In this document: piece after piece, positions 8,527 through 15,358 of the stretch
Position numbering within the stretch: position 1 is the first letter of the stretch
Layout of the letters: each line of letters opens with the position of its first letter
From: Sulfitobacter sp. HNIBRBA3233
GTDB taxonomy: Bacteria > Pseudomonadota > Alphaproteobacteria > Rhodobacterales > Rhodobacteraceae
Assembly (NCBI RefSeq): GCF_040149665.1
Contig: NZ_JBEFLP010000001.1
Coordinates: 124,001 to 188,000 of the forward strand
Direction: 5' to 3'
Length of the DNA: 64,000 nucleotides
Program-made: the position numbers and the translations under genes
Notes under the pieces: generated by a model
The model's input: only the letters and a program-made list of their open reading frames with translations
What the model was told of the DNA's origin: nothing
Database searches by the model: none

Positions 8527-9243
8527 TCAGCGGGCGGACAGAACCAGCACGTCCAGCTCGCGCAGAAGCTTCGCTTCCATCGCCTCCGCATAGCCGTCGT
8601 ACCCCAGCGCCGTCTTGACGAAGGCCTCCGGCCCCAGAATCACCTCGGCGCTGAAATATTGCACCAGCTCGGCGATCTCCGCCTGCCGTGCGTCACCGAT
8701 GGCGGCGTCGTCCGCGCCGATCACCAGCGCGTTCACGGTGATGCCCTGCGGCTCCAGCAGGGGTTTGACATGGCGCGGACGGGGGCCAAGGTTGCTCTTG
8801 CCGTCACCGGAAATATCGAGCGTGCGTTTCACGCATTGCGCGCGTTGCGCCAGATGCTGCGCACCGACGCTCATCGCCACGCCAAGGCCCGTTCCGGGCG
8901 TCGCGTCGGCCCGCCGTTCCACGGTGCCGAGTGTCTCGATCACCCGCTCCAGCGCGGCGGCGCTGTCGATGCGTGTCCACGGGACCAGCGTCAGCTGGTC
9001 CTGCGGGCCGCTCCATTCAAAGACCAGCAACTCAACCGGCGCCTCGGGCTGCTCCAGCAGGCGCGCACGGACTGCCACGCTGCCCAGAGCGCGCGCCACC
9101 CCGTCCAGCTGCAGCCGGTATTCCCGCGCATCCACGGACCCCGAGACATCCAGCGCCAGCGCCAGCGCCTGCCGGCAGTCCTGTGCCGTGGCCGCCACCG
9201 GCGCCAGCAGCAGGCAGGCCGCCATGGCCGCTGCGCGGATCAC
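8527..9243 (-). CDS. DUF1194 protein, secreted VWA-like (copy 1)
   Basis: This is a 238-residue exported protein. A signal peptide runs to about residue 20 (LLLAPVAATA-QD). A MIDAS-like motif DVSGS at 32-36 and a later ISGDGKSN segment indicate a von Willebrand factor A-like fold that may bind a divalent metal. DUF1194 is the recognised family; its function is unknown. The start is a GTG at 9243 whose bases overlap the TGA stop of copy 2 (GTGA), so the two are translationally coupled. Both begin with the same pattern, MIR then a hydrophobic stretch. Confidence 0.82.
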   Translation of the reverse strand: MIRAAAMAACLLLAPVAATAQDCRQALALALDVSGSVDAREYRLQLDGVARALGSVAVRARLLEQPEAPVELLVFEWSGPQDQLTLVPWTRIDSAAALERVIETLGTVERRADATPGTGLGVAMSVGAQHLAQRAQCVKRTLDISGDGKSNLGPRPRHVKPLLEPQGITVNALVIGADDAAIGDARQAEIAELVQYFSAEVILGPEAFVKTALGYDGYAEAMEAKLLRELDVLVLSAR

Positions 9244-9953
9244 CCGGCAGTCTCCGCGTCGGTTCCCAGTGATCCGATGGCGGGTGGGGCCAGTTCGCGC
9301 TCTAGCTTGCGGCGCATCGCGCGCTCGTAATCCTCGAACCCGTCCGCCACGATCACGAAAGCGCCCGGACCAAACATCACCTCGCGGCGGTAGAACGCGA
9401 TCAGGCCGACTTCGCCCTCGAAATCCGCCGCATTCACCACCAGCCCGTTCACCGTCACCCCGTCGAAGGGAAACTCGCGATAGGCATTGGCGGGCGGGAA
9501 GCCCTCGTTGCTCTGGCCGTCACCGGCCATGTCGAGCGTCTTGCGCAGGCAATCGGGCGCGCGCTCCAGCAGCTTGGCGCCGAACCCCAGCGCATAGCCC
9601 ATCGCGGTGGGAAAATCGTTGTGGCTGCGCTTCGACTGCGCCACGGTTTCGGCGGCTGACAACAGCGCCGCGCGGCTGTCGATGATCCGCCAGTCGAGGA
9701 TGATTTCCTGATTGTAGCGCCCCGACCACTCGTAAACAGCCAGCGCCACCGGCAGGTCCGAGGCAAAGAAGGCCTCGGTCACCTCGGGCGAGGTCAGGGC
9801 CGCCACCGTGCCCGAACGTTGCAGCGCATCCTCGCGCGCGTCGACCGAACTCGACACATCTATGGCCAGCGCCAGCGCCAGCCGGCACTCCTGTGCCGCA
9901 GCGGGCAGGGCTGCCAGTGACAGCCCCGCCCAAAGGATCGCAGAGCGGATCAC
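9240..9953 (-). CDS. DUF1194 protein, secreted VWA-like (copy 2)
   Basis: This is the 237-residue paralogue of the downstream gene. It has a signal peptide to about residue 20 (LAALPAAA-QE), the MIDAS-like DVSSS at 32-36, exactly in register with copy 1, and MAGDGQSN later. I chose GTG at 9953, which overlaps the gloA stop as GTGA and gives MIRSAILWAG, parallel to copy 1's start; an ATG at 9983 would add ten residues inside gloA. The three genes gloA, copy 2 and copy 1 form one coupled operon. Confidence 0.82.
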   Translation of the reverse strand: MIRSAILWAGLSLAALPAAAQECRLALALAIDVSSSVDAREDALQRSGTVAALTSPEVTEAFFASDLPVALAVYEWSGRYNQEIILDWRIIDSRAALLSAAETVAQSKRSHNDFPTAMGYALGFGAKLLERAPDCLRKTLDMAGDGQSNEGFPPANAYREFPFDGVTVNGLVVNAADFEGEVGLIAFYRREVMFGPGAFVIVADGFEDYERAMRRKLERELAPPAIGSLGTDAETAG

Positions 9954-10384
9954 CAGTGCCCCGTGTTCTCCATCGACGCCCATGGCTCCTGCGGCTCGAG
10001 GCTGTCACCGGCCTGCAACAGCTCGACCGAGACATTGTCGGGCGAGCGCACGAAGGCCATATGCCCGTCGCGCGGTGGACGGTTGATGGTCACGCCCGCA
10101 TCCTGCAGCTTCTGGCACATCTCGTAGATGTTATCGACGCGGTAGGCGAGGTGCCCGAAATGGCGGCTGTCGTCGGGCAGGGCATCGTCGCCGTCCCAGT
10201 TATAGGTCAGCTCCACGTCCGCGCGCCCATCGTCCTGTCCGGGGGGGCACATGAACACCAGCGTGAACCGCCCGCCCTCGTTCTCCAGCCGGCGACGTTC
10301 CACCAGTCCCAGCATTTCGTAGAACGCTTTCGACTTTTCCAGGTCTTTGACGCGCACCATCGTGTGCAGATATTCGATTGGCAT
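9950..10384 (-). CDS. gloA: lactoylglutathione lyase (glyoxalase I)
   Basis: This VOC-fold enzyme of 144 residues converts the hemithioacetal of methylglyoxal and glutathione to S-lactoylglutathione. The four expected metal ligands are visible: His7 (YLHTM), Glu58 (VELTYN), His78 (FGHLAY) and Glu121 (VELLQ). The length is normal for the short bacterial type. It is first in an operon with the two DUF1194 genes; nothing known links these families, so the co-transcription is of interest mainly as context. ATG at 10384 follows AAAGGAG. Confidence 0.9.
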   Translation of the reverse strand: MPIEYLHTMVRVKDLEKSKAFYEMLGLVERRRLENEGGRFTLVFMCPPGQDDGRADVELTYNWDGDDALPDDSRHFGHLAYRVDNIYEMCQKLQDAGVTINRPPRDGHMAFVRSPDNVSVELLQAGDSLEPQEPWASMENTGHW

Positions 10385-10469: not shown

Positions 10470-11873
10470 TCAAAAAGCCGAGACAATCCCGATGTTCAGG
10501 CCCAGACGGTTGCTGTCGTAGACGCCGATGTTCGAATTGGTCTTGGCTCCCGTCAGGCTGACCTGCGGGGTGAAGCCGTAGTAGTCGATATCGCGGAAAG
10601 TCGCGGTCACATCGAAAGAGATCTCCACGTCGCGGCGCCCGTCCACGCTCAGCAGATGCACATCGTAATCGCGCAGGGCCGCCCCGAGGCCGATCTGCAC
10701 CTGTGCGCCCATCACCTCGCGGCCCAGAAGATACCCGCCGCGCAGGCGCACAAGACTGTATTCATGCAGCGCGTTGGGCGATTTCTGGTCCGCCACGGTC
10801 AGACCCAGATGCACCCCGCTGCCGCCGCTCAGGGCCCTGTCGACGCCGAAGCTCACGCTCACGCTCTCGCTGTCCGACACCCGCTGGCCGTTCTCGACCT
10901 CTGCCACCAGACCGAAGCGCAGCTTGGTGCGCTGATCGACGAAATAGCTTTGATCCGCATGCCCGCGCAGGAAGCTGGCATAGCGCGCGCCGCCGTAGAA
11001 TGTCTGCCCCAGATCGACCCCCAGCGACAGCTCGCCGCGCCGGTCCGCGCGCAGATGCTTGAACCCGTAGCCGATGCTGGCGCTGCCAAAGGCATAGTCG
11101 CGCCCGCGGGCGTCGGGCACCTGATCCTTGCTGTCCTGCGACAGCGCGTAGGTGCGATAGCTCAGGCCAAGGCGCAGGTCATGCGCGCGCCGCTCGCTTT
11201 GGGCGAACCGGTAGCGCGACTGGACCTGACCGCCGATCTCGATGCCCGACAGCGCCTGCGCTTCCGGGTTGATCTCGCGCACCGTGGGGCCGCCCCCCAC
11301 CAGCCTGTCCAGCACGGAATCCGACAGAAAGCTATCGCGCGACGAGCCGTTGTTGATGTTGGAATTGGGGGCCAGCGTGAAGGACAGATGCGTCTGCCAC
11401 GGGTTGCGCTGGCGGACGTATTTGAAATCGCGCGTGGCGCGGCGCGCGTGCCCGGGGGAGGGTGCGTGCTCGACCGCGCGGCGCAGCCAGAACTGCGCCC
11501 GCGTGCGCTTGCCGTCCGACGACAGCGCCTGCGCCATCACCAGTGCCGCGTTGTATTTCTGTTCTGCGCTCCCGGCCAGCCGCCACGCACTGCGCGCCGC
11601 CTCCTGTGCGGGGGCATAGCGGCCCTGCGCGCGCAGCGCGTAGGCGCGGATCAGATGGGCGTTCACATCCTGCGGGTCGCGCGTCAGCAGCGCGTCGGCA
11701 AAGGCGACGGCCCGCGCCATATCCCCGCTCTGGGCGGCCAGCTTGGCCGCCTCCTGCATCTGCGCGGGGCTCAGTTGAAGAGGGCCGGCATCTTGCGCAT
11801 AGGCAAAGGGCGCCGCGACCCATGCCGCAACGCCCAAAGCAAACCCGACACGCCGGATCGTGTGATGGATCAT
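10470..11873 (-). CDS. Slam/DUF560 outer-membrane lipoprotein exporter (type XI secretion)
   Basis: The 467-residue protein has a signal peptide (cleavage near AYA-QD, residue 26). A helical TPR-like region follows at about 30-130 (AKLAAQSGDMARAVAFADALL, then DVNAHLIRAYALRAQGRY), and then a long beta-barrel (about 165-467) with alternating strands that ends in Phe467, the usual BAM signal. This N-terminal TPR plus 14-strand-like barrel plan is that of surface lipoprotein assembly modulators (DUF560), which move lipoproteins or related cargo across the outer membrane. Its ATG overlaps the stop of the upstream lipoprotein gene by 4 bases (ATGA), so cargo and exporter are made together. Confidence 0.82.
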   Translation of the reverse strand: MIHHTIRRVGFALGVAAWVAAPFAYAQDAGPLQLSPAQMQEAAKLAAQSGDMARAVAFADALLTRDPQDVNAHLIRAYALRAQGRYAPAQEAARSAWRLAGSAEQKYNAALVMAQALSSDGKRTRAQFWLRRAVEHAPSPGHARRATRDFKYVRQRNPWQTHLSFTLAPNSNINNGSSRDSFLSDSVLDRLVGGGPTVREINPEAQALSGIEIGGQVQSRYRFAQSERRAHDLRLGLSYRTYALSQDSKDQVPDARGRDYAFGSASIGYGFKHLRADRRGELSLGVDLGQTFYGGARYASFLRGHADQSYFVDQRTKLRFGLVAEVENGQRVSDSESVSVSFGVDRALSGGSGVHLGLTVADQKSPNALHEYSLVRLRGGYLLGREVMGAQVQIGLGAALRDYDVHLLSVDGRRDVEISFDVTATFRDIDYYGFTPQVSLTGAKTNSNIGVYDSNRLGLNIGIVSAF

Positions 11874-12964
11874 GGCCGTACAGCAGGGTCCCGGTACACG
11901 ATAAAGCCGCCGGTGTCGCGTGTCCGCTGTGTCCCTTGTGTCTCCAGCACGAAAACGCCCACGATCTCGTCCGGTGCGTCGCCCGACACGATGGCGTAGA
12001 ACTTGCCTTCCTCGTAGACGTCACCGCCCGACTGGCTCTGGATATCGACGATCAGATCGCCGTTGTTGTCCAGCGCATCAGGCCCGACCTCGAAAATCGC
12101 GTCCGGGATCGAGGTTTCGTCCTCGCTGATCGTCGAGGCAATCGCGGCGGTGATGTCATTGCCGTTCAGGTCGATGACACGGCGGTTGAACACGCGCCCT
12201 TTCACACCGTCCCCACGGATGGACTCGCCATCGTTGAAATCCTCGAAATCGACATCGACCGTGACATCGGCGGTCGAATACTCCAGACCCGCGCGTCCGG
12301 CGTAATCCCGCAGACCCGCCGATTTGCCGCTGAAACGCGCCTGAAGGCTGTTGGGCAGCGACACATCGGTGTCACGCTGGTAGATGAAACCGCCAAACCC
12401 GTAGTCGATGTACGAACCGGTCCGGACGATCGCGAATTGCGTGGTCGGCACGTCGGTGACCGTGCCGTCGGCGGCGCGCACACGGTTGCGGCTGACGCCA
12501 TAGATCGCGCGGTAAACGAACTGGTCCACTTCTTCGCCGGTCACCGGATCGGTCGCGGTACGGGGGCCTTCGTAGACCGCGAACTCGCCGCGGTTCAGGC
12601 TGCTGACGCGCGTGCCACGATCGTAAGGCCGGTCGCCGTCGAAGGCGATGTTGTCGACGGTAAAGGTATCGTTACGGCTGTTGTAGGTGATGCCGGTGGC
12701 ATAGCCGTTACCGGCATCGATGCCGGTTTCGCTCTCCGAACGGGCCTCGGCGCGAAACAGCGACGAATCCGGCGAGGGCGAAACGGTTCCGGGGGGGATG
12801 CCGTCGCGGTTGATCCCGGTGCCTTCACCGTCACCGATGGTCTCTCCGTCCGTGGGTGTCCCCGGTGTTTCCTCTTCGGCCGTCGTGCCTTCGTCAAACG
12901 GGTTGCCGCCGCTGCACGCGGCCAATCCCGCCACCAGCACGAGGCTGAGTATCTTTGTTTTCAT
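11870..12964 (-). CDS. TbpB-like surface lipoprotein, probable Slam cargo
   Basis: The 364-residue protein begins with a lipoprotein signal whose lipobox is L14-A15-A16-C17. The start of the mature protein ([10 protein letters not shown]) has no Asp at +2, so sorting to the outer membrane is expected. A Thr/Glu/Gly-rich tether follows to about residue 65. The rest is beta-rich, and its last 130 residues ([17 protein letters not shown], the DFEDFN strands, [23 protein letters not shown]) follow the order of the small C-terminal barrel of transferrin-binding protein B-like proteins, the domain that Slam exporters recognise. The ligand is unknown; iron or haem-related binding is common in the family but not shown here. 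Confidence 0.72.
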
Positions 12965-13166: not shown

Positions 13167-14072
13167 ATGCCCATCTCGCCCGAGCAACAAGCCGAAATCG
13201 ACGCCCTGCGCAGCCAGACCCGCCCGACCCTGCGGGCCGTATCCGACGGGATGGAGGCGCATCTCTACACCGCGCACGAAGTGCTCAACCACGGGTTCAT
13301 CCGCGTCATCGACTACATGGGCGACGACGCCGCGATCTGTCAGGCGGCGCGCGTCTCCTACGGCAAGGGCACGAAATCGGTGCAGAACGACGAGGGGCTG
13401 ATCCGCTACCTGATGCGCCACTGGCACTCGACCCCCTTCGAGATGTGCGAGATCAAGCTGCACGTCAAACTGCCCGTCTTCGTGGCGCGCCAGTGGATCC
13501 GCCACCGCACCGCCAACGTCAACGAATACTCCGCCCGCTATTCGATCCTCGACCGCGAATTCTATATCCCCGCGCCCGAACACGTGAACGCGCAATCGGT
13601 CGTCAACAATCAGGGCCGTGGCGGCGTGCTGGAGGGGGAGGAGGCCGCCCGCGTCCTCGAAATCCTCAAATCCGACAGCACCCGCGCCTATGACCACTAC
13701 GAGCAGATGATCTCCCAGGACGGGCAGGACGGTCTGGCGCGCGAGCTTGCCCGCATGAACCTGCCCGCCAACATCTACACGCAATGGTACTGGAAGGTGG
13801 ACCTGCACAACCTCTTCCACTTCCTGCGCCTGCGCGCGGACGAACACGCCCAATACGAGATCCGCGTCTACGCCGACGCCATCTGCAAGGTCGTCGCCGA
13901 CTGGGTCCCCGCCGCCTACCGCGCCTTCGAGGACTACCGTCTGGGCGGCGCGACCCTCTCGGGCAAGGCGCTGGAATGCATCCGCCGGATGCTGGCGGGC
14001 GAAGAGGTCACGCAGGAGAATAGCGGGATGAGCAAGGGGGAATGGCGGGAATTTGAGGGGGTTTTGGGGTGA
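13167..14072 (+). CDS. thyX: FAD-dependent thymidylate synthase
   Basis: This 301-residue flavin-dependent enzyme methylates dUMP to dTMP using methylene-tetrahydrofolate and NADPH. The signature RHRX7S is exact (R112-H113-R114 through Ser122). The conserved HWHSTPFE and the C-terminal [12 protein letters not shown] are also present. The ATG at 13167 has AAAGGA eight bases upstream. Flavin-type synthase replaces ThyA in many Rhodobacterales. Its TGA stop overlaps the GTG start of the next gene, which has very different base composition. Confidence 0.94.
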
Positions 14073-15358
14073 GTATATATCGTAATTGGGGTTTCAAAGA
14101 CAATTTGTTTGAAACCAAGGCGCTTCCAGCAAATCGGCAGGGTGCAGCCCTGATGGTAGGGAGGGATAAAGCGACGCAAAAAATAATTAAAGGTCTTAGC
14201 AGTAGTTCAAAATATGTCACTGTTGAGGGTTTGAACGGCGTCGGTAAGACGAGTGTGATTAACGTAGCGGTCTACAAATCAGCCGAAAAGCAAATCAAAG
14301 AAAATGATGGCCCCCTGTTTATTCCTTGTAGGAAGATTTTTCAGCTTGAAGCACACTCATCCGCAGATGAATTTAAGACGCGTGTATTGCTAGAGGTTGC
14401 TCAGACCTTAATTCAGGCACGAGATATTCTCCCAATTCCAAAGGGTTATACAAGGGCACCTAACAATAGAAGGCTTAATCGTTGGTTGAATTCGATTAGG
14501 GATGACGCCGGCGGTTTTTCAACTCCCATTGGCGGTTTGAGCTATCAGGGCATTCCGAATAACACCGAGGGTTTTGCGAAAAGCGGGCTTGAGAAAGCAA
14601 TAGTCGATTGGGTCCAGCTGATTTTTCCAAGCGAAGCTGAGGGTGGTGTAGTATGTATAATTGATAATTTGGAGTTACTGCAAACCTCAAAGGCAGTGCG
14701 TGAAGCTCTTGAGTCAATGAGGGATGATGTTCTCGCGATACCCGGTCTCAAATGGGTTCTCTGCGGAGCCATGGGGATTGTCGAAGGAGTTGCATCGTCA
14801 CCAAGAATGGCAGGATATCTTCAAAGCTCTATAAAAATTGATGATTTGGATCGAAAAGCAGCTGCTGAAATATTCAATAAAAGGGTTTCTTTTTATAAGG
14901 AAAAAAAGGAAACACGGATACCAATAACTGCTGATAATTTCGAAGAGTTATTCGCTATGCTCAGAGGGAACCTTCGTGCGGTACTTAGCGAAGCCGATAA
15001 CTTCTGCATGCACGCATCCGACGTTGAAGATGATGGGCAAGAATGGAGCCCGGAGTTATTCAATGATTGGTTGAAGTCCAAGATGGAAGATGTTTACGAA
15101 GCGAGTAAAGACTTCCTTGGAAAGCGCGCCATCGAAGTTTTCCATGTTGCTTGCAGTAAAGAGTCATTTTCCCCAAGCGACTTTGAGGACTTTGGTTTTA
15201 CAAGCAAAGAGGCTTTGCGATCCCATGTTAAGGAACTGGAAACAGCCGGACTTTTAGTAAGTACTCAAGACGATGGCGATAAACGAAGACGAACAGTGGA
15301 AGTGTTGCCAAAGGGTTGGCTGGTTAAGGGGTGGATCGACAGAATTCCAGCGGAATGA
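14069..15358 (+). CDS. AT-rich P-loop (AAA/STAND-like) ATPase of unknown role
   Basis: This is a 429-residue soluble protein. The conserved-looking start ([16 protein letters not shown], then [10 protein letters not shown]) leads to a Walker A GLNGVGKT at 54-61 and a Walker B VVCIIDN at 194-200, followed by a sensor-like WVLCGAMG. The last 80 residues ([20 protein letters not shown], then LETAGLLVS) look like a winged helix. This is the plan of ORC/Cdc6- or STAND-type ATPases, found in mobile and defence genes. GTG at 14069 overlaps the thyX stop (GTGA); the next ATG (14153) would lose the conserved start. Base composition is far lower in GC than the flanks, which points to transfer. Function is not assigned. 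Confidence 0.8.

Follow-up and report, generated by a model that had tools for sequence, protein, structure and literature searches.

The window, a stretch of 64,000 nt from Sulfitobacter sp. HNIBRBA3233 (Rhodobacteraceae), contains a locus with the gene order MarR regulator, two DUF1194 genes, glyoxalase, an exporter gene, the gene for its putative lipoprotein cargo, and thyX. Its features, in window coordinates, are as follows:

8527-9243 and 9240-9983, minus strand: two DUF1194 genes; constant flank.
9950..10384, minus strand: glyoxalase (GloA-like); constant flank, outside the exchanged unit.
11873-10470, minus strand: exporter gene, encoding a 467-aa Slam/T11SS outer-membrane protein of class A (Pfam SlipAM, TPR), with signal peptide, TPR domain (approximately residues 33-149), putative SlipAM barrel, and terminal Phe.
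11870-11873, minus strand: ATGA, overlap of the cargo stop and exporter start codons.
12964-11870, minus strand: cargo gene, encoding a 364-aa lipoprotein of class A.
10470..12850, minus strand: approximate exchanged unit (mature cargo plus exporter), extrapolated to the window by analogy with the break points of the G011/G066 genome pair discussed below.
13167..14072, plus strand: thyX, the flank on the other side; some relatives have thyA-DHFR instead.

A gene of low GC (44-46%) lies next to thyX at 14069-15358 on the plus strand, its first bases overlapping the thyX end; it encodes a STAND/AAA-like ATPase (nSTAND1, sub-threshold). In genome G013, a DUF4062 gene (L108:1181-2281, minus strand) occupies the position of the ATPase gene. 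The site beside thyX is possibly a hotspot for defence-like genes.

The exporter matches the Pfam SlipAM model (PF04575, formerly DUF560) at 7.2e-7, scoring 29.5 bits where 22 is the cut-off, over model positions 1-275 of 288; TPR_19 and TPR_14 are also above cut-off. Its signal peptide was judged by eye from the sequence, and searches of PDB sequences gave no significant match. AlphaFold2 models were made for both proteins from two-row alignments (the window sequences and those of L024). For the exporter, a helical TPR domain was modeled with confidence at approximately residues 33-149 (block means 70-96), followed by long strands in series ending in the terminal Phe. A preliminary description of this DNA, made from the sequence alone, had proposed a TPR-plus-barrel protein of Slam type joined by ATGA to a lipoprotein gene. 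Both minus-strand ORFs and the four-nucleotide overlap are present, and the TPR domain and the SlipAM assignment hold; the barrel itself is represented in the model only by strands at pLDDT <50. Identification as a Slam/type XI outer-membrane protein paired with a lipoprotein cargo is well supported.

The same genome has a second Slam gene (L001, contig 2, 332232-335984), far from the window locus, which fits the SlipAM model better (4e-16) than the window exporter does; a small Gly/Ser-rich predicted lipoprotein precedes it.

The cargo begins with a signal peptide, an LAAC lipobox (Cys-17) with S at +2, and a CSGGNPF tether, in agreement with the lipobox and GGNPF start read earlier; an acidic linker and a mature domain with a presumptive fHbp/TbpB-like C-terminus would follow. 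Evidence for the fold of that C-terminus comes from relatives. The window protein itself had no match above threshold in Pfam or NCBIfam, and its AlphaFold2 model has a pLDDT of 32. TbpB proper would have two lobes and a TbpB_B_D match above cut-off; no such match was found in the 364-aa cargo. Profile searches of its genome with PF01298 and PF08794 likewise gave no match, a result whose sensitivity the control genomes did not establish (for PF01298, none of them matched either), and neither single proteins nor class profiles found anything relevant among PDB sequences. Relatives do give matches, all below the gathering cut-offs: in class A the commonest is FHBP_C (10 of 30 relatives, best 5.5e-4), and in class B one cargo is covered by TbpB_B_D over model positions 1-125 of 126 (class best 1.4e-4). 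These sub-threshold matches agree with published AlphaFold models of syntenic cargos (PMC12282271). The TbpB-like C-terminal barrel proposed in the preliminary description thus draws its support from related sequences rather than from the window protein, and a TbpB/fHbp-like barrel is likely on that basis.

An iron-related role is not suggested by position. As noted earlier from the sequence, no haem or transferrin genes surround the pair: no iron or haem gene adjoins it, and the only TonB-dependent receptor match in the genome is on another contig.

The locus itself is already described. Grossman et al. (2025, PMC12282271) reported it as the marine cluster 3 T11SS locus of Roseobacteraceae/Rhodobacteraceae, in which thyX, glyoxalase, and DUF1194 genes surround those for a T11SS outer-membrane protein and a lipoprotein (282-375 aa) whose C-terminus is predicted to form an 8-stranded barrel. 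The window has these genes in the same order, and the genus Sulfitobacter is named there. The exporter and cargo are a pair, as first proposed, but not an isolated two-gene unit: they sit in a published syntenic slot. In a comparison of 11 strains, those authors found cargos with different N-terminal domains and one locus lacking a cargo, and they read the co-occurrence of the genes as functional. The terms “allele” and “allelic” are absent from their paper, which, unlike the present analysis, describes no joint replacement. In the literature searched, which left most subscription journals outside its coverage, no report of allelic-slot behavior at this locus was found. The new part is that the pair behaves as a co-replaced allele, common to several genera; this joint replacement is its most notable property, and is invisible from one genome.

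The slot was surveyed in 62 Sulfitobacter genomes. Exporter scores split into three clean groups, designated A, B, and C. Class A is found in 32 genomes (G080 among them, its exporter interrupted), B in 13 plus one remnant, and C in 8 plus one remnant; six slots are empty, and one (G020, at a contig end) could not be assessed. In all 48 loci from which a cargo could be extracted, it directly precedes the exporter, and in all 48 a Pro-Phe pair lies within nine residues of the lipidated Cys, against a background of 2%. The pairing is thus far beyond chance, and the conservation in related genomes that the preliminary description had proposed as a check is evident. The PF tether motif (cargo residues 17-23) is conserved in all three classes despite mature domains only ~32% identical. 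No Sulfitobacter genome examined has two classes together in the slot. In G080 (L117), the cargo is intact but its exporter is broken into two reading frames, and short exporter remnants remain in two otherwise empty slots, of class C in G068 (L110) and class B in G075 (L114).

Exporter and cargo agree in class in every Sulfitobacter pair of which both genes were read. Exporters of the same class have a median identity of 53.1% (minimum 43.7), against 31.9% (maximum 37.3) between classes; for mature cargos the corresponding values are 54.0% (minimum 44.8) and 31.9% (maximum 37.4). Flanking genes show little of this division, with same-class and different-class medians of 85.4 and 84.7% for glyoxalase, 87.7 and 87.0% for MarR, and 70.4 and 68.4% for DUF1194. 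Judging from sequence comparison, the three cargo families are remote homologues; for A-B and A-C the relationship holds without signal peptides, while the B-C comparison includes them.

The classes are scattered over a tree of flank proteins, which requires 12 changes among A, B, and C; 5-6 per class are forced by well supported branches, in a tree made by a quick method and with several open forks. On an exporter tree that includes other genera, by comparison, cargo class changes four times. The clearest single case is that of G011 and G066, whose flanking DNA is 96.3% identical on the thyX side (1.2 kb) and 95.2% on the glyoxalase side (4.6 kb), with no homology detected from base 114 of the cargo gene to 32 bases past the exporter stop. 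The replacement takes in the mature cargo (~30% identical) and the whole exporter (29%), but spares the signal peptide, lipobox, and tether. Joint replacement inside near-identical flanks is most simply explained by homologous recombination. A second case is G065 compared with G015 and G034. In the pairs G074/G061 and G003/G082 the signal peptide differs too; since it is kept in some swaps and different in others, break points must vary. A general rule that signal peptides track the flanks was considered and rejected: it is true for the closest swaps, with no correlation over all cross-class pairs.

In some same-class pairs, exporter and cargo are more diverged at synonymous sites than the flanks are; for G066/G077 the values are ~0.3 in the flanks, 1.4 in the exporter, and 0.85 in the cargo. 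Gene-wide dN/dS is 0.05-0.31 for both genes, which does not support positive selection as the source of divergence. High synonymous divergence together with low dN/dS makes the diversity of the pair look imported, rather than mutated in place.

The reading favored here, with a probability of about 0.78, is that a T11SS (Slam) exporter and its cognate surface lipoprotein form an overlapping two-gene unit, which occupies a fixed chromosomal slot as an exchangeable allele; at least three versions of it exist, deeply diverged from one another. By analogy with characterized Slam systems (PMC9090332, PMC5449769), the cargo would leave through Sec, be lipidated at Cys-17, and be carried by Lol to the outer membrane, where the Slam protein would recognize its C-terminal beta domain and pass it to the outer surface; once displayed, it would be tethered by its lipid and the acidic linker. 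The lipoprotein is most likely a surface protein displayed by the exporter. The odds are about even that the pair is a lock-and-key allele, with a surface protein and its dedicated exporter swapped as one unit between strains and genera, like capsule types, since both must match. In that case their joint movement would reflect a preference of each exporter for its own version of the cargo, and the versions may be kept by selection favoring rare surface types, by way of phage, grazer, or partner recognition.

Physical linkage alone could cause joint replacement as well, with the two genes moving together by adjacency and no mutual specificity. The unit is short (2.4 kb), and other genera of the family provide natural mismatches. 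In these genera the same versions are found at a glyoxalase-adjacent site (glyoxalase is present in 38 of 40 loci), and cargo class equals exporter class in 29 of 32 pairs; the other three are G216 and G173, with an A cargo and a C-like exporter, and G229, with a B cargo and an A-like exporter. Within Sulfitobacter, by contrast, none of the pairs read is mismatched in class, even though break points can fall elsewhere inside the cargo gene. Adjacency without specificity is considered rather unlikely, at perhaps one chance in several. In G216 (L159) and G173 (L168), the exporter barrel is C-like while the TPR domain scores slightly better as A, by weak margins.

A functional connection with the conserved neighbors has also been discussed: the pair might work with thymidylate synthase, glyoxalase, or DUF1194 in one-carbon metabolism or nickel/aldehyde handling, or DUF1194 might be a cargo or partner. 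Strong co-occurrence in the published comparison (PMC12282271) and the conserved order in Sulfitobacter are consistent with this. Glyoxalase, DUF1194, and MarR are however kept in all eight empty or decayed slots, and DUF1194 divergence does not track exporter class. Next to the slot, 46 genomes have ThyX as thymidylate synthase and 12 have ThyA-DHFR; intact pairs accompany both kinds. Since these neighbors persist whether the pair is missing or of another version, their nearness is poor evidence for a common function. The co-occurrence is positional at this locus, and lends little support to one-carbon, nickel-uptake, or DUF1194-export roles; the neighbor-function explanation is improbable. 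The exchange of one thymidylate synthase for the unrelated other at a single position can itself be seen at loci L109, L110-L115, and L063-L067; ThyA, where present, is followed by DHFR.

If the classes were instead ancient paralogues sorted by differential loss, their age and trans-generic distribution would be accounted for. Two classes together in one slot are however absent from the Sulfitobacter genomes examined, and the G011/G066 change begins within the cargo coding sequence and leaves the signal peptide and tether in place, which is not easily obtained by losing one of two tandem copies; this explanation is very improbable. Least likely of all is delivery of the pair by site-specific insertion of a mobile island at an integration hotspot: presence, absence, and replacement at one site and the low-GC STAND-like ATPase gene beyond thyX are in its favor, but the exchanged unit starts inside a coding sequence and ends just past a stop codon, its G+C is about equal to that of the flanks, and no integrase is found among the neighboring proteins examined.

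Interpreted as an exchangeable exporter-cargo allele, the pair can be compared with better-known systems. Like Neisseria Slam1 and Slam2 with their clients TbpB, fHbp, and HpuA, it combines a TPR plus SlipAM exporter with a lipoprotein cargo bearing a putative C-terminal barrel, and client specificity may be shared as well; it differs in that the exporter is remote (with no significant match among PDB sequences), the cargo is single-copy and adjacent, and no TonB receptor is nearby. Another parallel is PmSLP of Pasteurella multocida (PMC10075479). There, four discrete surface-lipoprotein variants lie beside slam, PmSLP-1 and PmSLP-3 are 37.9% identical, and presence varies by strain; like the Sulfitobacter cargo, these are discrete versions present or absent from strain to strain. 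PmSLP diversity is within one species and tied to host and disease, unlike that of the window pair, and the available text yielded no statement on co-variation of Slam.

These results weaken a published inference: folate, glyoxalase, and DUF1194 genes that stay constant beside an exchangeable module may have functions unrelated to it. Natural swaps of exporter and cargo in near-identical backgrounds provide ready matched and mismatched pairs for the question of how Slam proteins choose their clients, and the mismatches in G216, G173, and G229 are leads for mapping which exporter domain reads the cargo. If selection does maintain the versions, the cargo would be a good candidate for what a phage, a grazer, or an algal partner recognizes on marine bacteria.
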